A stretch of DNA of 64,000 bases, taken from NCBI RefSeq assembly GCF_900168065.1, contig NZ_FUZZ01000005.1:620001-684000 (forward strand), read 5' to 3'. Shown piece after piece: positions 49,143-59,913 of the stretch; positions within the stretch are counted from its first letter, which is position 1; each line of letters starts with the position of its first letter. The DNA is from Chitinophaga ginsengisegetis. GTDB taxonomy: Bacteria; Bacteroidota; Bacteroidia; Chitinophagales; Chitinophagaceae. The notes beneath the pieces are model-generated. The model worked only from the letters and a program-made list of their open reading frames with translations, was not told the origin of the DNA and ran no database searches. The position numbers were made by a program, and so were the translations under genes.

Positions 49143-50198
49143 ATGAATGATTTCTTCCGGAACTCCCTGTCCGCTATTATCGCCATTTTTCTACTCGCTG
49201 GATGCAGCAAAAGTGAATCCCAAACCATTGTTGCCACCGGCTACAGTGATGTGGACCAGGTGCTGAACGATTCCGTACCTGTTGCCTTTGATGGCAAATG
49301 TTACGCAGTGATTCATGAAAATGGGAAAACCGTATATGCGAAAGGATTCGGCGGCTATACCGGCAGCACACGCCAGCTCATTGCTTCCTGTTCCAAATGG
49401 TTATCGGCGGCAGTGGTTATGAGCCTGGTAGATGAAGGAAAAATAAAGCTCACCGATAGTGTGGGGAAATATCTGCCCGTTTTTACTACTTATCATAAGG
49501 GAGATATTACCATTGCGCAACTCTTCTCCCATACATCCGGTTTTCCCGGAAATTCTTCCCAGGGATATGAATCCAATGTGCTGATCACGCTCACACAGGC
49601 GGCAGATGGTATTGCCCGGAATGTGGCGCTGCTGAACCGGCCGGGCACCACCTTTTATTATGGCGGCGTAAGTATGCAGGTTGCCGGCCGCATTTGTGAA
49701 GTGGCCTCCGGTAAAAGCTGGAGCGCCCTGGCGGCGGATAAAATATTTACGCCCTGTGGCATGACCAGCACCGACTTCGGACTCACGGCCAATCCGCAGA
49801 TTGGCGGCGGCGCCCGGAGCACGCCGGACGATTATATCCGCTTCCTCGACATGATCATGAACAAAGGCGTAGCCGCCAATGGTACCCGTGTGCTCAGCGA
49901 AGCCGCAGTAGCAGCGATGGAGGAAAGTCAAACCGGCCATGTTACTGTCACTTATACCCCTTATCCCGCAGTACTGCTCAATACAAAAGATTTCTACGGC
50001 ACCGGCAACTGGAGGGACGTAACCGCTCCCGGTGGCGCACTGATTGAAAACAGCAGCCCCGGCGCCTTTGGCAGCCATCCGTGGATAAACCGCGATAAAA
50101 AGCGCACGGGTTTTATCTTTACTTTTATTGCCAGCAACGGTTATCTTTCCACTCTACCCACCTGTTTAAAGATCCGGGCGCTGGTGAGGAATAAATAA
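49143..50198 (+). CDS. Serine hydrolase lipoprotein, beta-lactamase fold
   Basis: A 351-residue lipoprotein (lipobox LLAGCSK). The SxxK motif is SCSK in LIASCSKWLSAAVV, and the second-motif region is FYYGGVSMQVAGRI, where the usual YxN is changed to YYG/YGG. The C-terminal part has GAFGSHPWINR in place of the HxG box. It belongs to the broad class C beta-lactamase/esterase family. It lies immediately upstream of the fucose-associated GH95 operon but is separated by that operon's operator and promoter, so it is probably not part of it. Confidence 0.85.
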   Translation: MNDFFRNSLSAIIAIFLLAGCSKSESQTIVATGYSDVDQVLNDSVPVAFDGKCYAVIHENGKTVYAKGFGGYTGSTRQLIASCSKWLSAAVVMSLVDEGKIKLTDSVGKYLPVFTTYHKGDITIAQLFSHTSGFPGNSSQGYESNVLITLTQAADGIARNVALLNRPGTTFYYGGVSMQVAGRICEVASGKSWSALAADKIFTPCGMTSTDFGLTANPQIGGGARSTPDDYIRFLDMIMNKGVAANGTRVLSEAAVAAMEESQTGHVTVTYTPYPAVLLNTKDFYGTGNWRDVTAPGGALIENSSPGAFGSHPWINRDKKRTGFIFTFIASNGYLSTLPTCLKIRALVRNK

Positions 50199-50210: not shown

Positions 50211-50242
50211 TAAGTCAAGATAGTGTCTGTTTTAGTCAATTT
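50211..50242 (+). promoter_or_regulatory. Probable AraC-type operator of the GH95-SGNH operon
   Basis: AGTCAA at 50213-50218 and again at 50234-50239, a direct repeat with a 21-bp period; the shared context TAAGTCAA-n-ATAGTGT and AGTCAATTT is nearly identical to the site at 54788. The second half starts 37 bp before the -7 box at 50271. The AraC gene at 53877-54755 is the likely binder. Confidence 0.7.
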
Positions 50243-50270
50243 TCAGGGAGAGTTGTTGCCCCATTGCCGT

Positions 50271-50278
50271 TAATTTTG
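50271..50278 (+). promoter_or_regulatory. -7 promoter element of the GH95-SGNH operon
   Basis: TAATTTTG, an exact TAnnTTTG match. No TTTG occurs at the -33 position, which suits an activator-dependent promoter. It predicts a start near 50285 and a leader of about 108 bases. Confidence 0.55.
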
Positions 50279-50392
50279 ATGGTATACAAATTCCACGGAA
50301 GAGGTCATATACCTATGGTCTGCCACAGTCGGAGATTATTAATACATAACAGGCGCACCTGCCTGTTACATCAAAAACGTTATCCGGAAAAC

Positions 50393-52729
50393 ATGGATCA
50401 GCAACTTTTTTCTTTCAGGCATATTGCAATAGCCGGCGCCCTGTTGATGGCCGGTACAGCTGCGGCGCAGCAGCAACCATTACGGCTCTGGTATAACAAA
50501 CCGGCAAAGGTTTGGGAGGAAACGGTGCCACTTGGGAATGGCCGCCTGGGCATGATGCCGGATGGCGGGATCAGCCAGGAGAAGATTGTTTTAAATGATA
50601 TCACCCTCTGGTCCGGCGCACCGCAGGACGCCAACAACTACGATGCCTACAAACAACTGCCCGCTATCCGGCAGCTGCTGGCCGAAGGAAAGAATAACGA
50701 GGCCCAGGCGCTGATGGACAAATCATTTGTATGTACCGGCAAAGGCTCCGGGGATGTTCCTTTCGGATGTTTCCAGATGCTGGGCGAATTATTGCTGCAG
50801 TTCAGCTATCCCAAAGCGGATAGCCCTGCCCGTTATAAAAGGGACTTGTCGTTGAATGAGGCGATAGCCACTACTAATTATACAATTAACGGGGTCGCCT
50901 ATACGCGCGAATATTTTACGGACTTCAACGGCGATGTAGGCGTGATCCGTTTAACGGCCGGCAATGGCGGACAACTCAATATGCGGGTTGCCATCAGTCG
51001 CCCGGAAAGAGCCACCATCCGCACCGAAGGACAGGAGCTGCAAATGTCCGGCGAATTGAAAAGCGGTACTGCCAATCCCGGTATGAAATACCTGACCAGG
51101 GTACAGGCAAAACTGAAAGGTGGTCAGCTGCTAACGGACAAGGATACACTGGTTATTAAAGATGCCACGGAAGTGATCCTGTATGTATCCACCGCTACGG
51201 ATTTCAGGAATCCCGGTTACCGGGAACAAACGAAACAACTGCTCGCTGCAGCCATGCGTAAAGGTTATGCGCAGCAGAAGCAACAGCATATAGCCGCTTA
51301 TCAGCGTTTATTCAACCGCGTTAGTATGGAGCTGGGCGGCGCCGGTGCCACACAGGTGCCTACCGATCAGCGGCTCATTGATTTTCACAAGGCGCCCGCG
51401 GCAGACAACGGATTACCCGTACTATTTTATCAATACGGCCGTTATCTGAGCATCAGCAGCACCCGCGTGGGTTTGCTGCCACCTAATTTACAGGGGCTGT
51501 GGGCCAACCAGATCCAGACGCCCTGGAATGGGGATTACCACCTCGACGTAAATGTGCAGATGAACCACTGGCCGGTGGAAGTGAGCAACCTGCCGGAACT
51601 CAACCTGCCGCTGGCGGAGCTGGTACACGGACTGGTGAAACCCGGTGAAAGAACTGCCAAAGCTTATTATAATGCAGAAGGATGGGTTGCGCACGTGATC
51701 ACCAATATATGGGGCTTTACAGAGCCAGGGGAAAGCGCATCGTGGGGCGTTACCAAGTCAGGGTCCGGATGGTTGTGTAATAACCTTTGGGAGCATTATG
51801 CTTTTACCAATGATAAAAAATACCTGGAAGATATATACCCGGTGTTAAAAGGCTCTGCTGAATTTTACAGCAGCATGCTGATAAAGGATGATAAAACCGG
51901 GTGGCTCGTTACTTCCCCTTCTTCTTCTCCGGAAAATTCTTTTTATCTGCCCAACGGCCAAACTGCCAGCATCTGCAACGGACCTACTATTGATAACCAG
52001 ATCATCCGCGAGCTGTTTATGAATGTGATCACCGCTGCCAAAACACTCGGCAAGGATGCTGCATTCACCACCACGCTGACGGAGAAATTAAAACAGCTGC
52101 CGCCTGCAGGCAGGGTAGGTAAAGACGGCCGACTGATGGAGTGGCTGGAAGAATACAAAGAGACAGAACCCACGCACCGGCATATTTCACATTTATACGG
52201 ATTATACCCCGCCTCGCTGATTACACCGGAAGCCACGCCGGAACTGGCCGAAGCCTGCAAACAAACGCTGGAAGTGAGAGGGGATGATGGCCCCAGCTGG
52301 TCCATTGCCTATAAGCTCTTATTCTGGGCACGACTACATGATGGCAACCGCGCGTTTAAATTGTTCGCCGGATTAATCAAACCCACTTATAATACGGACA
52401 TTAACTACGGCGCCGGTGGCGGTATTTATTCAAACATGTTTTCTGCAGGGCCTCCGTTCCAGATAGATGGCAACTTCGGTGGCGCAGCCGGACTGGCAGA
52501 AATGCTGCTGCAAAGTCATGCGGGCTTTATCGATTTGTTGCCTGCACTGCCTGATGCGTGGAAGGCGTCTGGTACGGTAAAGGGGCTGAAAGCAAGAGGC
52601 AATTATACCGTAGATATGACCTGGAAAAACGGCCTCGTTACCAATTATAAAATACGCGGCGCCGCTACGCATAAAGTAAAAGTAAGAATCAACGGGGTAA
52701 TAAAAGAGATACAACCAACGAAAATATGA
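50393..52729 (+). CDS. GH95 alpha-L-fucosidase
   Basis: A 778-residue exported GH95 enzyme from ATG 50393, with signal peptide RHIAIAGALLMAGTAAAQ. A longer frame to 50264 is rejected because it starts before the predicted transcription start. Family landmarks are RLWYNKPAKVWEETVPLGNGRLGMM at the N-terminus, SPSSSPENSFYLPNG, ITNIWGFTEPGESASWG, GDYHLDVNVQMNHWP and the HISHLYGLYPASLI segment. Inverting alpha-1,2-fucosidases of this family remove terminal L-fucose from glycans. It overlaps the SGNH hydrolase gene by four bases (ATGA). Confidence 0.93.
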   Translation: MDQQLFSFRHIAIAGALLMAGTAAAQQQPLRLWYNKPAKVWEETVPLGNGRLGMMPDGGISQEKIVLNDITLWSGAPQDANNYDAYKQLPAIRQLLAEGKNNEAQALMDKSFVCTGKGSGDVPFGCFQMLGELLLQFSYPKADSPARYKRDLSLNEAIATTNYTINGVAYTREYFTDFNGDVGVIRLTAGNGGQLNMRVAISRPERATIRTEGQELQMSGELKSGTANPGMKYLTRVQAKLKGGQLLTDKDTLVIKDATEVILYVSTATDFRNPGYREQTKQLLAAAMRKGYAQQKQQHIAAYQRLFNRVSMELGGAGATQVPTDQRLIDFHKAPAADNGLPVLFYQYGRYLSISSTRVGLLPPNLQGLWANQIQTPWNGDYHLDVNVQMNHWPVEVSNLPELNLPLAELVHGLVKPGERTAKAYYNAEGWVAHVITNIWGFTEPGESASWGVTKSGSGWLCNNLWEHYAFTNDKKYLEDIYPVLKGSAEFYSSMLIKDDKTGWLVTSPSSSPENSFYLPNGQTASICNGPTIDNQIIRELFMNVITAAKTLGKDAAFTTTLTEKLKQLPPAGRVGKDGRLMEWLEEYKETEPTHRHISHLYGLYPASLITPEATPELAEACKQTLEVRGDDGPSWSIAYKLLFWARLHDGNRAFKLFAGLIKPTYNTDINYGAGGGIYSNMFSAGPPFQIDGNFGGAAGLAEMLLQSHAGFIDLLPALPDAWKASGTVKGLKARGNYTVDMTWKNGLVTNYKIRGAATHKVKVRINGVIKEIQPTKI

Positions 52730-53880
52730 TCAGGAAATTAGCAGGGGTATTATTAGGTATAGCCGTTACCGTTAGTGCGCTGGCGCAGGAGCAATTTATT
52801 ACCCGTTATGGCCGCCTCGATAATGTAAGGTATCATATCAAAGCAGATAAAAAGGCTACCATTACTTTCATGGGTGGCTCTATCACCAATATGGAAGGCT
52901 GGCGTGGTAAGGTGTGCGACTATCTCACTGCTGCATACCCTGCTACTGATTTCCGTTTTATCAATGCCGGGATTCCTTCGCTTGGCAGCTTACCACATGC
53001 GTTCCGGTTTGAACACGATGTATTAAGCAAAGGAAAAACCGACTTGCTATTCCTGGAAGCGGCGGTAAACGACCGGGTGAATGGTACCAATGAAGTAACG
53101 CAGCGCAGGGCTATGGAAGGGATTATCCGTCATGCGCTGAAAGCCAATCCGCAGGTGAATATTGTGCTGATGGCTTTTGTGGATGAAGACAAGATGGCCG
53201 ACTATCACGCTGGTAAAGTGCCGGTAGAAGTACAGGTGCATGAAGATCTTGCCAAAAAATATCATCTGCCGTTTATCAATCTCGCTAAAGAAATTACTAC
53301 CCGCATAGATGCCCGTGAGTTTACCTGGAAAGATGATTTTAAAGATCTGCATCCTTCTCCTTTTGGGCAGCAGTTATATTTTGATGCGATCAAACGGTTA
53401 CTGGAAGAGGATTTCAGCGCAATGGCGCCAAAGCATTTATCATCAGTGAAACTGCCCCGCGCAGCGGACCCGCTCAATTATGAAAACGGCGCCTATGGCG
53501 ATATACATGAAGCTGTTAATAAAAATGGATTCTCCATCATTGAATCATGGGAGCCCACTGATAAGGTGGGTACCCGCGAAGGATTTGTAAAGGTGCCTAT
53601 GCTGGTATCAGACACGGCGCGTGCCAGTGTGGAGTATCCATTCACCGGGCGTACTGTTGGTATTGGCATTGTTTCCGGTCCGGATGCAGGTGTAATCAGC
53701 TATCGTATTGATGGCGGCGCTGTGCAGCAAAAAGATCTGCGCACGCAGTGGAGTAAAAGCCTGTACCTGCCGTGGTATCTCATATTGGGTGATGATCTGA
53801 AACCCGGCAAACATACGATCAGCCTGCAAAAGGAGGGTGATGGATCTGTTTGCCGGGTGGTGTATTTCCTGGTAAATTAA
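52726..53880 (+). CDS. SGNH/GDSL-type hydrolase, possible glycan esterase
   Basis: A 384-residue exported protein with signal peptide ending VSALAQEQ. The SGNH block I is TFMGGSITNMEGW (nucleophile Ser about residue 52), Asn is in EAAVNDRVNG and the catalytic Asp-x-x-His is in KDLHPSPFGQQLY (about 205). A C-terminal beta domain (about 255-384) may bind substrate. Translationally coupled to GH95, it probably removes O-acetyl or other esters from fucosylated glycans. The last four bases overlap the convergent AraC gene. Confidence 0.88.
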   Translation: MIRKLAGVLLGIAVTVSALAQEQFITRYGRLDNVRYHIKADKKATITFMGGSITNMEGWRGKVCDYLTAAYPATDFRFINAGIPSLGSLPHAFRFEHDVLSKGKTDLLFLEAAVNDRVNGTNEVTQRRAMEGIIRHALKANPQVNIVLMAFVDEDKMADYHAGKVPVEVQVHEDLAKKYHLPFINLAKEITTRIDAREFTWKDDFKDLHPSPFGQQLYFDAIKRLLEEDFSAMAPKHLSSVKLPRAADPLNYENGAYGDIHEAVNKNGFSIIESWEPTDKVGTREGFVKVPMLVSDTARASVEYPFTGRTVGIGIVSGPDAGVISYRIDGGAVQQKDLRTQWSKSLYLPWYLILGDDLKPGKHTISLQKEGDGSVCRVVYFLVN

Positions 53881-54755
53881 TCCAGTGAAGTAACGTCTCT
53901 CTTGTAGTCTCTCGGGGTTTTCCCTTTGATCTTTTTGAAGAAGCGGTTAAAGTGCGTGGTATTCCTGTATCCGCACTTATTCGATAACTCTGCCATCGAC
54001 ATTTCCTTTTCCTGCAATAGCCTGCAGGCGTAACCGATCCTTAATTCATTTACAAAATGAGTAAATGATTTCTGTGTTCTGCTTTTGAAGAAGCGGCAGA
54101 AGGAGTGTACGTTGATGCCTGCCACCGCTGCTATTTCCGACAGCGGGATATCTCTTTTAAAATGACGGAAAATATATTTGAAGATATCATCCATCCTCGA
54201 CTGATCTTTATCGTTATACAGGTTTACATAGTTAGTGCCGGCAAGGAGTTTATATTCTTTGGTGGCCATCATTTTCTGTAGCAGGGTCATAAAGGAGATG
54301 GTTTGCAGCAGGTCGTGCTGTGTAAGCATCTGCTGCATCAACGCCAGTATTTCCGTTTTGGCTTTGCCATGAAACTGGATGCCCCGCTGCGCCTTTTTGA
54401 GCCAGGTTTTAACGGCGCTCGCATTGGTAAAGGGACTAAGATGTTCTACCAGGAGATCCGGCGAAATATACAACGCCAGCGACCTTGCCTGGAGCTTGTC
54501 TTTCCCTTCAAAATACTTTTGCTCGTTGTGCCACACATGCGGGGTACCGGAGCCAACAAATATCAGCTCCCCGCTTTCAAAATAGCTGATGTTATCGCCA
54601 ATGATGCGTCGCCCGGCGCTTTCCACTACGTATACCAGCTGGCATTCGTGATGGAAGTGGAACTCCGTGGAAAAGTACGGCTGTGTAATTTCCTTGATCA
54701 GGTATACACTTTGTTCGAGGGCTTTATCGCCCGGTATGGCAAAAAGAGGCTTCAT
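53877..54755 (-). CDS. AraC-family regulator with cupin-type sensor domain (candidate fucose regulator)
   Basis: A 292-residue soluble regulator. The N-terminal cupin-like domain (about residues 15-100: YFSTEFHFHHECQLVYVVESAGRRIIGD, VGSGTPHVWHN) should bind a small sugar. The C-terminal AraC double helix-turn-helix (about 190-285) includes IPLSEIAAVAGINVHSFCRFFKSRTQKSF and AELSNKCGYRNTTHFNRFFKKIKGKTPRDYK. It is divergent from the SDR-GH29-FucD-SSS operon, and between them lies one of two matching direct-repeat operators. It is most likely an activator responding to L-fucose or a breakdown product. Confidence 0.92.
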   Translation of the reverse strand: MKPLFAIPGDKALEQSVYLIKEITQPYFSTEFHFHHECQLVYVVESAGRRIIGDNISYFESGELIFVGSGTPHVWHNEQKYFEGKDKLQARSLALYISPDLLVEHLSPFTNASAVKTWLKKAQRGIQFHGKAKTEILALMQQMLTQHDLLQTISFMTLLQKMMATKEYKLLAGTNYVNLYNDKDQSRMDDIFKYIFRHFKRDIPLSEIAAVAGINVHSFCRFFKSRTQKSFTHFVNELRIGYACRLLQEKEMSMAELSNKCGYRNTTHFNRFFKKIKGKTPRDYKRDVTSLD

Positions 54756-54787
54756 ATTATCCGACTAAAATAGGTAAATTCAGTAAA

Positions 54788-54820
54788 TAAGTCAAAATAG
54801 TGTTGATTTAAGTCAATTTC
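54788..54820. promoter_or_regulatory. Probable AraC-type operator in the divergent fucose promoter region
   Basis: AGTCAA at 54790-54795 and 54811-54816, a 21-bp-period direct repeat matching the one at 50213. The -7 box at 54848 lies 37 bp after the start of the second half, the same distance as in the GH95 promoter. It could also control the AraC gene itself. Confidence 0.72.
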
Positions 54821-54847
54821 ACCGGGATGACCTACCTTATCCCTGCT

Positions 54848-54855
54848 TACTTTTG
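54848..54855 (+). promoter_or_regulatory. -7 promoter element of the fucose catabolic operon
   Basis: TACTTTTG, an exact TAnnTTTG match, without a -33 element at the expected place. It predicts a start near 54862, about 19 bases before the SDR start codon. Confidence 0.55.
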
Positions 54856-54880
54856 AATTATCCACGGAAAATGAAAAACG

Positions 54881-55648
54881 ATGATACTGCAAGATAAAAT
54901 AGTGCTGATTACCGGCGGCGCATCCGGCATTGGTGAAGCCTGCGCGCAGGTGTATGCAAAGCAAGGCGCCACCGTGGCGGTGATTGATAAAGACGCTGCA
55001 GCATTGCAACGTTTGCAGGAGCAGATGGGCACGCCGCATATTTTCCTCACAGCAGATCTTAACAGCGGCGCGTCTATACAACAGGCCATTGACAGGGTGC
55101 TGCAAACCTACGGCCGGCTCGATGCTATCCATAATAATGCAGGCGTTGCCAGTCCTTCGAAACCTTTACATGATACCACCGAAGAAGAGTGGCAACTGGT
55201 CATGAATGTAAATGTGCGTGGCATCTATTACACCACACGCTATGGCATTGCTGCACTGAGAGCTTCCCGTGGCTGTATCCTCAACACCAGCAGTATGGTA
55301 GGGGACATTGGCCAGGAAAACCATGCGGCCTATGCAGGTAGTAAAGGAGCGGTAAATGCACTCACCAAAGCAATGGCGCTCGACTATGCCGCCGACGGTA
55401 TCCGGGTAAACGCAGTGGCCCCCGCAGGCGTATGGACGCCCATGTTGCGCCGGTGGAGCAGTGAACAGCCGGAACCCGCACGTATAGCGCAATACCTCGA
55501 TGGTATCCACGCGTTGGGATATTGCCCGGAGGCAGATGAAATTGCCGACGTGTGCGCGTTCCTGTTATCTGAACAGGCGCGCTTTATCACCGGCTGTATT
55601 ATGCCCGTAAGTGGCGGGGCAGAACTTGGATATAAGCATACCTTATAA
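54881..55648 (+). CDS. SDR-family dehydrogenase resembling HSD17B14-type L-fucose dehydrogenase
   Basis: A 255-residue short-chain dehydrogenase: TGGASGIG at residues 11-18, Asp36 after the second strand (AVIDKD), which favours NAD+, NNAG at 85-88 and the catalytic set Ser138, Tyr151, Lys155. The phrases GDIGQENHAAYAGSKGAV, WTPML and the C-terminal SGGAELGY resemble human HSD17B14, an L-fucose dehydrogenase, as I remember its sequence. It would oxidise L-fucose to L-fuconolactone. A start at ATG 54871 lies in another frame and closes after eight codons. First gene of the four-gene operon. Confidence 0.88.
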   Translation: MILQDKIVLITGGASGIGEACAQVYAKQGATVAVIDKDAAALQRLQEQMGTPHIFLTADLNSGASIQQAIDRVLQTYGRLDAIHNNAGVASPSKPLHDTTEEEWQLVMNVNVRGIYYTTRYGIAALRASRGCILNTSSMVGDIGQENHAAYAGSKGAVNALTKAMALDYAADGIRVNAVAPAGVWTPMLRRWSSEQPEPARIAQYLDGIHALGYCPEADEIADVCAFLLSEQARFITGCIMPVSGGAELGYKHTL

Positions 55649-55661
55649 AATAAAGTGAACA

Positions 55662-56987
55662 ATGAAAAAATTAGCTGCTTTCTGTTTGTTGTTGCTGGCA
55701 CTCCAGGGCAAAGCCCAGACCAATGCACAACTGGATCCGAAAATACTGACCAGTAAAAAAGTGATGGACCAGTTTATGGACCTGCGCTTTGGCCTGTTTA
55801 TCCACTGGGGGCCTGTTTCCCTGAGAGGTACGGAAATAGGCTGGTCACGGCACAGCAAGGTGCCGGCCGCAGAATATGATACCCTGTACCGTCAGTTTAA
55901 CCCTGTGAAATTTAATGCAGAGGAATGGGTGAAAACAGCCAGCGATGCCGGTATGAAATACCTGACCATCACTGCCAAGCATCATGACGGATTTTGTTTA
56001 TGGCCATCTGCCTATACTGATTATAATATTACTGCCACTCCCTTTAAGAAAGATGTGGTGGGCCTGCTGGCAAAAGCATGTAAGAAGTATCACATTAAGT
56101 TCTGTATCTATTACTCGGTGCTCGACTGGCACCATCCGGACTACCCTATTGATAATCCGGATGATACAACGGCAAAGGGTATACGAAAAGATGCACGCAT
56201 GGACCAGTACGTGGTGTATATGAAGAACCAGCTGAAAGAACTGGTAACCGGCTATGATCCTTATATGCTGTGGTTTGATGGTCCCTGGGAAAAGCCATGG
56301 ACACCAGAAATGGCGGTGGACGTGTACACCTATCTCAAAACACTGAAGAAAGATCTTATTATTAATAACCGTCTTGGTAAAGCGTTTTCCGGCACCGGCG
56401 CTTCGGGTACGTCTACCTTCCTGGGCGATTTTGATACGCCGGAACAACGTATCGGCGACCTGGACATGAACACGCCCTGGGAAACCTGCATGACCATCTG
56501 CGAGCAGTGGGCCTGGAAGCCGGATGATAAAATGAAATCGCTGCAAACCTGTATTCAAACACTGGCGAAAGTGGCCGGTGGTAACGGCAACCTGCTATTT
56601 AATGTAGGGCCCCGCTCCGATGGAGCCATAGAACCTGCACAGGTAGCCCGTTTGAAAGAGATGGGCGACTGGCTTCGTAAGTACGGCGCCGCTATTTATA
56701 ATACGCATGGCGGTCCTTACAACCCTAACAGCAAGTATGCTGCTACGCGGAGTGGCAACAAAGTATACGTGCACGTTTTTGATCAGTCGCAGCCAACTAT
56801 TGAACTGCCTGCTATGCCGGGCGTAAAAGTTAATAAAGCATATCTCCTGAAAGGCGCTGCAGTGAAGCTGACTACAGCCGCCGATCGGTTCACGATAACA
56901 TTGCCCGCTGTATTGCCCGATGCCAATGACACCGTAGTGGTATTGGAAACGGATAAGCCGGCGCTTAGTGTTGCTCCTATAAAATGA
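55662..56987 (+). CDS. GH29 alpha-L-fucosidase
   Basis: A 441-residue exported fucosidase, signal peptide LAAFCLLLLALQGKAQ. The GH29 landmarks are RFGLFIHWGPVSLRGTEIGWS (about residues 43-63), YLTITAKHHDGFCLW, IKFCIYYSVLDWHHPDY and LWFDGPWE, in which Asp206 is the predicted nucleophile. A short C-terminal beta domain follows. It removes alpha-linked L-fucose from glycans by a retaining mechanism, complementing the inverting GH95 enzyme. It lies 13 bp after the SDR gene in the operon. Confidence 0.94.
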   Translation: MKKLAAFCLLLLALQGKAQTNAQLDPKILTSKKVMDQFMDLRFGLFIHWGPVSLRGTEIGWSRHSKVPAAEYDTLYRQFNPVKFNAEEWVKTASDAGMKYLTITAKHHDGFCLWPSAYTDYNITATPFKKDVVGLLAKACKKYHIKFCIYYSVLDWHHPDYPIDNPDDTTAKGIRKDARMDQYVVYMKNQLKELVTGYDPYMLWFDGPWEKPWTPEMAVDVYTYLKTLKKDLIINNRLGKAFSGTGASGTSTFLGDFDTPEQRIGDLDMNTPWETCMTICEQWAWKPDDKMKSLQTCIQTLAKVAGGNGNLLFNVGPRSDGAIEPAQVARLKEMGDWLRKYGAAIYNTHGGPYNPNSKYAATRSGNKVYVHVFDQSQPTIELPAMPGVKVNKAYLLKGAAVKLTTAADRFTITLPAVLPDANDTVVVLETDKPALSVAPIK

Positions 56988-56996
56988 TAACATAAA

Positions 56997-58238
56997 ATGA
57001 TCAGTAAGATAGTTGTAAAAGATGCCCGGTTCCCTTTAACAGGTGGCGCCGGTAGCGATGCCATACATCAGAACCCCGTATATTCGTACACGGTAGCCTG
57101 TTTGTACGACGACAAAGGTAATTGCGGTACCGGCCTGGCTTTCACCCTGGGAGCAGGCAATGAACTGGTATGCGCTGCTGCGCGGTTCTACGGCGAAAAG
57201 CTGGTAGGAAAAGAACTTACCGAAGTGATGGCTTCCTTCGGCGATTGGTTTAAACAACGTTCCGATGAGCAGCAGTTCCGATGGCTGGGCCCTCACAAAG
57301 GAGTGGTGCACCTGGCCCTAGCCGCGGTAACCAATGCCTGCTACGACCTGTGGGCCAAACAACAGCAGGTGCCTTTATGGAAATTGCTGCTGGATCTTAC
57401 ACCGGAACAGGTGGTGAATACATTAGACCTCTCGTACCTCGAAGAAGTACTGCCCCGTGAAGAAGCGGTCCGTATGTTAACGGAAATGCAGGCCTCCAGG
57501 GCTTCGCGTGAAGGCGTGCTGCGCACGGGTTACGCGGCCTACGACACTTCCGCCGGCTGGTTTAATTATTCCGATGATCAGCTGGAAGCTAATTGTAAGC
57601 GCGCATTGGATAACGGCTTTCGCGCACTGAAATTAAAGGTAGGTGCAAAAGACCCGGACACGGATATACGAAGAGCGCATATTGTAAGAAATACTGTTGG
57701 CGATGAGATCAAAGTAATGGTAGATGCCAATCAGCAATGGAATCTGCCGCAGGCAATTGCTATTGGTAAAAAACTTGCAGCTATTAATCCTTACTGGATA
57801 GAGGAGCCCACGCACCCGGATGATATCCTCGCGCACAAAACCCTGGCGGATGCGTTGAACCCCGTGAAGCTGGCTTTGGGAGAACATGTACCCAATAAAG
57901 TGATTTTCAAGAATTACCTGCAAACAGGCAGCGCCGGGTTTATACAGGTAGATGCGGTAAGGGTAGGAGGTGTCAGCGAATTTATTACGGTAAGCCTGTT
58001 ATGTAAAAAGTTTGGCGTGCCGGTGGTACCGCATGTAGGCGATATGGGACAGCTGCATCAGCATTTGGTGTTGTTCAATCACATTGGTATGGGACATGAA
58101 GCCTTATTCCTGGAGCATATACCGCACCTGCGTAAGCACTTCGTTCATCCTGCACTCATTACAGACGGCTTTTACAAGACGCCTGAAACACCGGGCAGCA
58201 GTTGCGATCTGCTGTCTCTTAATACTTTCCCGGGATGA
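56997..58238 (+). CDS. L-fuconate dehydratase (enolase superfamily)
   Basis: A 413-residue mandelate-racemase-type enzyme. Catalytic KxK is Lys212-x-Lys214 (ALKLKVG); metal ligands are Asp243 (VDANQQW), the WIEEP glutamate (about 269) and Glu296 (LGEHVPN); His346 is in VVPHVGDMGQ. The overall wording matches bacterial FucD and human ENOSF1 (L-fuconate dehydratase), including the ending LITDGFYKTPETPG. It converts L-fuconate to 2-keto-3-deoxy-L-fuconate. It starts 9 bp after the fucosidase gene and overlaps the transporter gene by four bases. Confidence 0.93.
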   Translation: MISKIVVKDARFPLTGGAGSDAIHQNPVYSYTVACLYDDKGNCGTGLAFTLGAGNELVCAAARFYGEKLVGKELTEVMASFGDWFKQRSDEQQFRWLGPHKGVVHLALAAVTNACYDLWAKQQQVPLWKLLLDLTPEQVVNTLDLSYLEEVLPREEAVRMLTEMQASRASREGVLRTGYAAYDTSAGWFNYSDDQLEANCKRALDNGFRALKLKVGAKDPDTDIRRAHIVRNTVGDEIKVMVDANQQWNLPQAIAIGKKLAAINPYWIEEPTHPDDILAHKTLADALNPVKLALGEHVPNKVIFKNYLQTGSAGFIQVDAVRVGGVSEFITVSLLCKKFGVPVVPHVGDMGQLHQHLVLFNHIGMGHEALFLEHIPHLRKHFVHPALITDGFYKTPETPGSSCDLLSLNTFPG

Positions 58239-59857
58239 TAGCTACTACCGATATTATCATCAGCATTTGCTATGTGGCCTTTATTGTGGGGCTGGGCTTC
58301 TGGGCGGGATTATCCGGCAAGAAGAATGATTCAGCGGCAGGAGAATATTTCCTGGCCGGTAAATCGTTGCGCTGGCCCATGATAGGCATGGCATTGTTTG
58401 CCACGAACATTTCTTGTTTGCACCTGGTTAGTCTTGCCCAGAGCGGCTTTGATACCGGCTTGCTGGCGGGTAACTTTGAGTGGATGGCCGCCTTTACATT
58501 GATATTGCTGGCACTCTTCTTTATTCCGTTTTACATCCGTTCGGGAGTGGCCACGCTGCCGGATTTCCTGGAGCGGCGTTACAACAGGGCGTGCCGCGAC
58601 TGGCTGGCGATTGTTTCCGTAGTATCGGCAATCGTGATCCATATTGCGTTTTCTTTCCTGGCGGGCGGCATTGTGCTGGAAACGTTGTTTGGCATAAACA
58701 TGTTTACCAGTATTATCCTCATTGCATTGGTAACGGGCGCATACACTATTGTAGGCGGGCTCCGGGCCGTGGTGGTAACAGAATCCGTGCAAACGGTAGT
58801 GTTGCTGGCCGGCGCGGTGATCATCACGGTACTGTCGTGGTGGAAGGTAGGCGGCTGGCAACCGGTGGTGCAGGTGCTGCAGGAGGGCCATCAAATGGAT
58901 AAGCTGTCGATGTTGCATCCGGCGGGCGATCCGAATGGGTTGCCCTGGTATGCGGTGTTCCTGGGTTATCCTGTTATTGGTATCTGGTATTGGTGTGCGG
59001 ATCAGACTATTGTGCAGCGGGTATTGGGTGCAAAGGACGAAAATCATGCACGTACCGGCGCGCTGTTCTGTGGTTTTATAAAAGTGTTGCCTGTTTTTAT
59101 TTTCATTCTCCCGGGACTACTGGCGTATGTGTTGTTCAAGCAAGGACACCTGGACCTGGAAGTATTGCGGCAGGCCGATGGACAGCTGCATACGAAGGGC
59201 ATTTATTCCGTAATGATTACGCGGCTGGTGCCTACCGGGCTGGTAGGTGTGCTGGTAGCGGCGTTGCTGTCGGGCCTGATGAGCCAGATCTCCGGCGCGC
59301 TGAACTCTATTGCCACGCTGGTGAGCTACGATCTGTACAAACGGAACCGCCCGCAGGCAACAGACCGGCAACTGGTGAAAACGGGCCGTATTGCGGCCGG
59401 TTTAGCGCTTATTTTATCCATTGGGCTACTACCATTGCTAAACAGGTATGAGAGTCTTTTTAACGGCATTAACGACGTAATATCACATATTGCACCGCCC
59501 ATCACCTGCGTGTTTCTGCTTGGTGTGTTCTGGAAAAAGGCATCTTCCCTTTCGGCGCAATATACTTTGTGGATAGGATCGGCGCTGGGTGCGGGGGTAT
59601 ATCTTACCGGAAAACTATATCCGATTAACACACCACCGCTGATGGTGGCTTTCTATTTGTTTGTGGTTTGTGCGTTGTTGCAGGTGGTATTGTCATTTGT
59701 ATTCCCGGTGCAGCATACCGCTGAAAGCAGCCGTCTTTACTGGGAGAGTCCTTTAGCGCCATTGCGGGTAAAAGGCTGGCCGGGGCTGGCGAACTATAAA
59801 GTATTGTCTGCTGTGTTGCTGCTGATGATGGCAGCGCTGTACTGGCTTTTCCGGTAG
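58235..59857 (+). CDS. Sodium:solute symporter (SSS family), probable fucose transporter
   Basis: A 540-residue inner-membrane protein with about 13 hydrophobic segments. Family signatures include DSAAGEYFLAGKSLRWPMIGMALFATNIS, GLRAVVVTESVQTVVLLAG, YWCADQTIVQRVLGAKD and the SSS motif GLMSQISGALNSIATLVSYDLYK. It would import a sugar with Na+. Its position as the last gene of the fucose operon, translationally coupled to fuconate dehydratase, points to L-fucose as substrate. A strong terminator follows. Confidence 0.92.
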   Translation: MIATTDIIISICYVAFIVGLGFWAGLSGKKNDSAAGEYFLAGKSLRWPMIGMALFATNISCLHLVSLAQSGFDTGLLAGNFEWMAAFTLILLALFFIPFYIRSGVATLPDFLERRYNRACRDWLAIVSVVSAIVIHIAFSFLAGGIVLETLFGINMFTSIILIALVTGAYTIVGGLRAVVVTESVQTVVLLAGAVIITVLSWWKVGGWQPVVQVLQEGHQMDKLSMLHPAGDPNGLPWYAVFLGYPVIGIWYWCADQTIVQRVLGAKDENHARTGALFCGFIKVLPVFIFILPGLLAYVLFKQGHLDLEVLRQADGQLHTKGIYSVMITRLVPTGLVGVLVAALLSGLMSQISGALNSIATLVSYDLYKRNRPQATDRQLVKTGRIAAGLALILSIGLLPLLNRYESLFNGINDVISHIAPPITCVFLLGVFWKKASSLSAQYTLWIGSALGAGVYLTGKLYPINTPPLMVAFYLFVVCALLQVVLSFVFPVQHTAESSRLYWESPLAPLRVKGWPGLANYKVLSAVLLLMMAALYWLFR

Positions 59858-59866
59858 GAGCCGTTT

Positions 59867-59913
59867 ATAAAAAGATAAGCCTCTCCGGTTACCGGAGAGG
59901 CTTATCTTTTTAT
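59867..59913. terminator. Strong bidirectional terminator between the fucose operon and fabI
   Basis: A perfect 22-bp inverted repeat (59867-59888 and 59892-59913) with a TTA loop and A/T-runs at the outer ends on both strands. It separates the symporter gene from convergent fabI. Confidence 0.92.

Follow-up and report, generated by a model that had tools for sequence, protein, structure and literature searches.

The AraC protein of Escherichia coli, which controls araBAD, combines a cupin domain with two helix-turn-helix (HTH) motifs, recognizes direct half-sites 21 bp apart of which the proximal one reaches the −35 region, and is encoded divergently from the operon; its distal half-site is strong and its proximal half-site weak. 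Direct repeats of 21 bp are also described for AraC-family rhamnose regulators and for hybrid two-component systems (PMC3870299, PMC3878776). The fucose regulator of Bacteroides thetaiotaomicron, FucR (BT1272), is listed as a GntR-family protein of the fucRIAKUP operon (PMC3878776). Here we describe paired 21-bp repeats in Chitinophaga ginsengisegetis, in a stretch of 64,000 nucleotides (contig NZ_FUZZ01000005.1, positions 620,001 to 684,000, forward strand), which we call the window and whose own numbering we use. Two operons with fucose-type genes, GH95-SGNH and SDR-GH29-FucD-SSS (FucD, L-fuconate dehydratase; SSS, sodium:solute symporter), lie on either side of a gene for an AraC/cupin regulator, and each operon is preceded by a pair of AGTCAA hexamers. 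From comparison of genomes, we infer binding, effector, and sign: the half-sites, near −70 and −49, are very probably bound by the neighboring AraC-type regulator, which would thereby switch on a set of L-fucose genes.

The locus shares with E. coli AraC the domain plan, the 21-bp direct half-sites, and the divergent layout, and a regulator-side half-site is possible in a distant clade of relatives. It differs from that system in its half-site sequence and in having a Bacteroidota −7 box rather than −35/−10 elements, and a loop is only suggested here. The rhamnose regulators of the AraC family, RhaR of Bacteroides among them, likewise control a deoxyhexose pathway and are found in Bacteroidota among others (PMC3870299), but they serve other sugar genes. 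FucR BT1272 regulates the fucose pathway in the same phylum, whereas the regulator here belongs to the AraC family and stands beside FucD-type oxidative genes; the Pfam scan of this protein returned no GntR winged-helix domain, only the AraC-type HTH and the cupin. The Bacteroides hybrid two-component systems also have an AraC-type HTH and tandem sites that average 21 bp (PMC3878776), but the present regulator has only 292 amino acids and no sensor, kinase, or receiver domain in the Pfam scan, and it is thus not a hybrid protein. Searches of openly licensed papers showed no description of this fucose regulon, and a database such as RegPrecise may list a prediction of it. The half-site sequence and the regulon appear new; an AraC-type sugar switch with a 21-bp repeat is already known in Bacteroides, whose AraC regulators typically have such a repeat.

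The original prediction placed AGTCAA at 50213/50234 and 54790/54811, with ATAGTGT common to both spacers and AGTCAATTT at both ends, and a TAnnTTTG box 37 bp past the start of the second half at both promoters, and the window sequence agrees with it at every coordinate. Predicted site 1 (50213 to 50239, plus strand), upstream of GH95-SGNH, is an exact match with a distal AGTCAA-N-ATAGTG and a proximal AGTCAA 21 bp apart; its −7 box, TAATTTTG, spans 50271 to 50278 on the plus strand, at +58 from the distal and +37 from the proximal half. Predicted site 2 (54790 to 54816, plus strand), also an exact match, lies upstream of SDR-GH29-FucD-SSS, 35 bp from the start codon of the regulator, and the box of this operon, TACTTTTG (54848 to 54855, plus strand), starts 37 bp after the second AGTCAA and 58 bp after the first. 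Counting both strands, the window contains the hexamer 12 times; only in these two cases do copies on one strand lie within 60 bp of each other, each time with the 21-bp spacing and the box. AGTCAA-N15-AGTCAA occurs exactly twice without mismatch, and when one mismatch was allowed there were still 2 matches, compared with 0.13 expected from shuffles of the window. A generic sigma-70 promoter scan showed no enrichment (8 matches versus 14 expected), and inspection by eye yielded no firm promoter box for the regulator gene. It had further been remarked that both promoters lack a −33 element; this is true by eye but not diagnostic, because promoters of Flavobacterium johnsoniae are reported in general to show the −33 motif far less clearly (PMC6847099), and we dropped its absence as a special sign. 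Both leaders (50291 to 50300 and 54861 to 54869) hold TCCACGGAA. The leader sequence TTCCACGG was rejected as a specific element: it occurs 6 times in the window compared with 1.9 expected, and it may therefore be general.

The predicted site-binding protein is encoded on the minus strand at 53877 to 54755, and Pfam confirmed that an AraC/cupin gene lies between the two operons. The 292-amino-acid product matches HTH_18 (6e-21, 74.9 bits; cut-off, 33.6) and HTH_AraC (6e-11, 42.7 bits; cut-off, 26.6), and it matches Cupin_2 at 7e-5, under the gathering score. In Foldseek comparisons, its AlphaFold model aligned with isolated AraC-type DNA-binding domains at target-normalized template modeling (TM) scores of ~0.8 to 0.9, full-length AraC-family chains (ToxT, CsvR, and Rns) reached only ~0.4, and the beta-barrel strands of the N terminus matched the RhaR regulatory domain at ~0.57 to 0.60 (target normalized). 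As modeled, the protein has an AraC-type double HTH and, at its N terminus, a predicted cupin sensor domain of the sugar-sensing branch.

Scanning the organism's own 7.93-Mb genome for AGTCAA-N15-AGTCAA before TAnnTTTG, as had been suggested, returned the two window sites and one more. The bare hexamer pair has 4 exact matches and 11 with at most one mismatch, compared with 117 for the reversed pattern, and is therefore not enriched. The extended pattern AGTCAA-N-AT-N-GTG-N6-T-N-AGTCAA has 3 exact matches, to which allowing up to three mismatches adds none (reversed pattern, 16); specificity resides in the extended form, not in the bare pair. All three extended sites precede fucose-type genes, each with a −7-type box at +37. 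The third (L003, on another contig) differs in its spacer bases and precedes a detached mutarotase-family gene; its box, TACCTTCG, begins 37 bp after the start of the second half and has one mismatch to TAnnTTTG. The gene product belongs to the rhamnose-mutarotase family, but its nearest relatives of solved structure are L-fucose mutarotases (1.9e-32 in the PDB); the matches to L-rhamnose mutarotase (6hhn, 1.5e-4) and YiiL (1x8d, 2.2e-6) are weaker. The remaining bare match, L004, was rejected as a regulon member, as the extended bases and a box at +37 are absent, and is probably a chance match. Both operons of the proposed regulon, GH95-SGNH and SDR-GH29-FucD-SSS, are thus kept, but the set is somewhat larger, taking in the mutarotase of this genome and SusC-SusD pairs in relatives. 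By their sequences, the predicted L-fuconate dehydratase and L-fucose mutarotase would place the regulon in the nonphosphorylating L-fucose pathway.

Conservation at orthologous loci, the loss of which had been named as grounds for giving up the idea, was examined in 79 genomes of the genus, and the site and its spacing are kept wherever the AraC/cupin regulator is kept. An orthologue of the regulator at 57 to 100% identity occurs in 15 of the 79 (self included), and in all 15 the site adjoins the regulator gene. All 14 zero-mismatch matches in the 79 genomes fall in genomes with this close regulator; among the remaining 64, 57 have no match at up to two mismatches and 7 have one (6 at two mismatches and G219 at one). 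We aligned 26 sites of this AGTCAA form (A-type): 11 at SDR, 4 at GH95, 2 at SusC-SusD-GH95, 5 at a detached mutarotase gene, and 4 at SusC-SusD-DUF4959 in the group with 57 to 60% identity, with a degenerate site found later 5′ of the SGNH gene in G192 (L169) left out. All 26 keep the 21-bp register, so that by sequence the half-sites are direct repeats two helical turns apart, as expected of AraC/XylS-type binding. All 26 also have TAnnTT at +58 from the distal half (TAnnTTTG exactly in 19, with one mismatch in 5 and with two in 2), and no other offset between 30 and 94 has more than two boxes. This +58 geometry is common to several nonhomologous promoters, and the columns from the proximal half to the box are mostly weakly conserved. 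Only the distal half has a further conserved block, AT-N-GTG, which makes it strong and the proximal half weak, as in AraC. Counterparts of site 1 lie 5′ of GH95 in G183, G167, and G219 and 5′ of SusC-SusD-GH95 in G149 and G192, and the position of site 2 is kept in all 11 close orthologues that have the fucose operon. The mutarotase gene was found in 7 of 16 genomes searched; in 5 it is detached from the operon and preceded by a separate site (degenerate in one case), and in G218 and G156 it lies inside the operon, where the operon site alone was found.

Regulators with 44 to 49% identity occur in 13 further genus genomes and in 2 genomes of other genera, mostly beside the same fucose operons. 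No AGTCAA site was found at these loci. Their sites (B-type) instead read TGCTAATATA-N-GC ... TCAA in the same 21/58-bp geometry, with a TGCTAA-like distal and a TCAA-like proximal half in 21-bp register. The box stands at +58 in all 17 selected sites, and other offsets hold at most three boxes. The 17 comprise 13 copies with a box at +58, 2 from a scan of FucD loci, and 2 (G195 and G171) found by eye; since boxless regulator-side copies were left out, along with G209, and two sites were found by eye, the 17 of 17 is partly a matter of choice. A generic search for 21-bp repeats missed these sites because the distal and proximal halves differ in this clade. The first recognition helix of the regulator varies along with the distal half-site: NVHS goes with AGTCAA, NTYS or STYS with WGGCAA, and NKQA, SKQA, or NKQS with TGCTAA. 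In G182 and G217, the regulator gene lies elsewhere, beside a GH29 gene, and the FucD operon still has the site. Twelve of the 17 B-type boxes begin with TAG, that is, with G at −10, a base reported as virtually absent there from F. johnsoniae promoters (PMC6847099); these may be weak, activator-dependent boxes.

FucD is present in 42 of the 79 genomes, 25 of which have the regulator; the 25 include G209, where a partial regulator (46% identity, residues 1 to 173) goes with a B-type site and box, and which was therefore counted as regulator bearing. A site was accepted if the distal 10-mer and the box each had at most one mismatch and the box stood at +58, a rule that was scripted for part of the set and judged from printed sequences for the rest. 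Such a site was found at the FucD operon in 23 of the 25 regulator-bearing genomes and in none of the 16 regulator-less genus genomes examined (Fisher p = 1.5e-9, ignoring relatedness); an earlier, smaller set gave 22 of 24 versus 0 of 15 (p = 5e-9). On the regulator-less side, 16 of 17 genomes were examined, 15 of them with 12 to 15 kb of extra upstream DNA, and G197 (L210) was not counted because its contig ends just before the GH95-FucD genes. Two regulator-less matches went uncounted, L153:1196 (upstream of GH95 by 1.0 kb and of FucD by 7.8 kb) and L154:934 (~4.9 kb past the end of SDR), both without the proximal TCAA; two further TCAA-less matches, in L128 and L129, were ignored. At 10 of the 16 regulator-less loci (L197, L198, L200, L201, and L204 to L209), a different AraC gene adjoins the SusC gene; the one product scanned (L091) has an AraC_binding domain and resembles the regulator (27% identity) solely in its DNA-binding part. 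The same enzymes therefore run without the site where a nonorthologous regulator stands in.

The geometry was also searched for blindly across 394 genomes of the family, with only GCTAANATA, TCAA, and TAnnTTTG at fixed distances as the pattern. Of 23 matches, which include four loci already known (G157, G180, G055, and G108), 13 lie beside an AraC/cupin relative (26 to 49% identity; tblastn at 1e-8), compared with none of the 6 matches obtained when the box was shifted by 3 bp (p = 0.02); since AraC genes are common, a base rate above zero is to be expected. The reversed pattern gave 9 matches. The matches beside such relatives include one at a fucose operon of another genus (L165) and positions 5′ of four DHDPS-family aldolase genes (L175, L176, L186, and L187) with an AraC/cupin relative of 26 to 32% identity nearby, which are probably other sugar-acid regulons of the same layout. 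The A-type set, the scans of FucD loci, and the blind scans are the evidence less prone to selection.

The paired repeat is real and well conserved, and it almost certainly serves a regulator as its operator. Because the repeat travels with the neighboring regulator gene in relatives, it is very probably the predicted landing site of that regulator, as originally proposed: the two are conserved together, and the site is absent at the 16 regulator-less FucD operons examined. Comparison of sequences establishes the predicted sites, their geometry, their link to the regulator, and the target list. Several observations weigh on the other side. In genome G219, a good site precedes GH95 (80% identity; L134:6953, minus strand; correct box), but there is no orthologue of the regulator, FucD, or the mutarotase at the cut-offs used; its site may be a relic or be served by another protein. 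Four genomes of the 57 to 60% group have the site before SusC-SusD, and FucD was not found in them, so the effector could differ there; the SusD protein of G220 is 52 to 63% identical to those of two relatives' FucD loci. The scan misses the operon sites of G195 and G171, for which a less strict inspection was needed. A stray two-mismatch match occurs in six more genomes of the genus that have no close regulator. The one in G214 falls at the head of a regulator-less FucD locus, in the gap separating SusC from an unrelated AraC gene; it is on the opposite strand and has no box. Finally, genome counts are not independent, as many of the genomes are closely related. The same intergenic region of G214 contains a repeated CCAATACTATCTT, and the bases of the stray match recur nearby; this repeat may be the operator of the other AraC protein.

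Some of these observations would suit a genuine site with another binder: an AraC-type protein encoded elsewhere, either a paralogue or a two-component hybrid, would occupy it, and the neighboring regulator would be a bystander. Bacteroides hybrid regulators also use repeats averaging 21 bp (PMC3878776), G219 retains a site without the regulator, and most genomes of the genus encode a relative with ~39 to 45% identity. We nevertheless consider this reading improbable: the sites track the regulator in 15 of 15 genomes, all 14 exact matches in the genus are found there, 57 of the other 64 genomes have none, and the distal half covaries with the recognition helix.

A fixed-distance position upstream of the promoter box is the place of class II activators, and an AraC-type activator of this class touches RNA polymerase from a proximal position near −33. 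On this ground, the proximal half being at the class II contact, we take the regulator for an activator that responds to fucose or a pathway intermediate. The first T of the −7 box lies at −12 in F. johnsoniae promoters (PMC6847099); on that scale the distal half-site would begin near −70 and the proximal one near −49, and the latter, 17 bp long, would end near −33. A dimer of the regulator, or two monomers, would sit on the two direct half-sites along a single face of the DNA, the proximal half-site reaching the −35 region for an AraC-type contact with RNA polymerase and the −7 box serving as the core promoter. In the presence of L-fucose or a fucose-pathway intermediate, the regulator would turn on GH95, GH29, the symporter, FucD, and SDR, together with the detached mutarotase and, in relatives, SusC/SusD uptake pairs. 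The reverse sign, in which the regulator is a repressor that holds the operons off until released by fucose, also seems improbable to us. The site near the regulator's own start is a likely place for repressing the regulator gene, but such self-repression could coexist with activation of the operons, and the sites lie upstream of the −7 box, not over it, at one fixed distance. AraC-family RhaR of B. thetaiotaomicron is, moreover, described as a positive regulator (PMC3870299). As for the two repeats being chance matches or a recent duplication of one promoter segment with no regulatory meaning, we give this next to no credence: the window sites do share bases outside the hexamers and the bare pair is not enriched over its reversed control, but they differ in their flanks and between repeat and box, the third site has other spacer bases, and the same spacing recurs in all 26 A-type sites, which come from divergent genomes, and again in the B-type set with its different half-site sequence.

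The activator reading leaves room for autoregulation, which the original prediction had raised as possible. The site begins 34 to 35 bp from the start codon of the regulator in every one of the 11 close orthologues that have the operon and in 10 of the 15 distant orthologues, but in none of the 4 SusC-type genomes; the fixed distance favors the idea; the regulator probably also controls itself, and the site would adjust its expression from this distance. In 10 of 15 distant-clade loci, there is a second half-site, 72, 83 (5 genomes), 84, 106, 251, or 453 bp away, that is, 6.9, 7.9, 8.0, 10.1, 23.9, or 43.1 turns of 10.5 bp; there are few independent cases, and the 106-bp one has two mismatches. 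At L101 to L106, L109, L112, and L113, a lone half-site stands 19 to 35 bp from the regulator start, with the operon operator 72 to 453 bp away. The near-integer numbers of turns, from few independent cases, hint at a possible repression loop. No extra regulator-side half-site was seen in the window's clade, which has only the one shared site. A broader view is doubtful but conceivable. The 58-bp spacing could be a positional code used throughout this AraC/cupin subfamily in the bacterial family (fucose, DHDPS-type aldolase, and SusC targets) to activate promoters needing no −33 contact. In the distant fucose clade, a second half-site in the leader of the regulator gene, in helical phase with the operon operator, could form an araO2-like repression loop, which would have collapsed to a single shared site in the window's clade.

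The remaining features of the locus were assigned mainly by sequence matches. The GH95 alpha-L-fucosidase gene (50393 to 52729, plus strand; Pfam Glyco_hydro_95_cat, 9e-166; PDB GH95 4ufc, 5e-175) was given the ATG at 50393, and the N terminus of its product looks, by eye, like a signal peptide; its stop codon is overlapped by the SGNH/GDSL hydrolase gene (52726 to 53880, plus strand; Lipase_GDSL_2, 3e-15). The second operon, all on the plus strand, begins with an SDR dehydrogenase gene (54881 to 55648; adh_short_C2, 4e-58), whose product may be a sugar or keto-sugar-acid dehydrogenase and scores 174.5 bits with the NCBIfam L-fucose dehydrogenase model, under the 300-bit cut-off. It continues with a GH29 alpha-L-fucosidase gene (55662 to 56987; Alpha_L_fucos, 1e-87; PDB alpha-L-fucosidases, best 1e-71) and the FucD gene of the enolase superfamily (56997 to 58238; PDB 2hne, 4e-104, residues 6 to 405), the product of which also matches mitochondrial enolase superfamily member 1 (PDB 4a35, 2e-109). 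The last gene encodes the sodium:solute symporter, a candidate for fucose uptake (58235 to 59857; SSF, 5e-71; TIGR00813, above cut-off), and is followed by a long, terminator-like inverted repeat (59867 to 59913) with a 20-pair stem and then a T-rich tail. Of the 15 loci with a close regulator, 8, the window included, have a serine beta-lactamase-like hydrolase gene (49143 to 50198 in the window) next to GH95, SGNH, or SusC, although the site lies 3′ of it.

For this group of Bacteroidota, these predictions supply a regulon, an operator, and a promoter geometry for the use of L-fucose, a sugar for which the regulator of Bacteroides belongs to a different family. The fixed 21/58-bp layout could be used to find the operators of other AraC-type regulators, and the three half-site variants, each with its own recognition helix, would make a natural test bed for the DNA specificity of AraC proteins.

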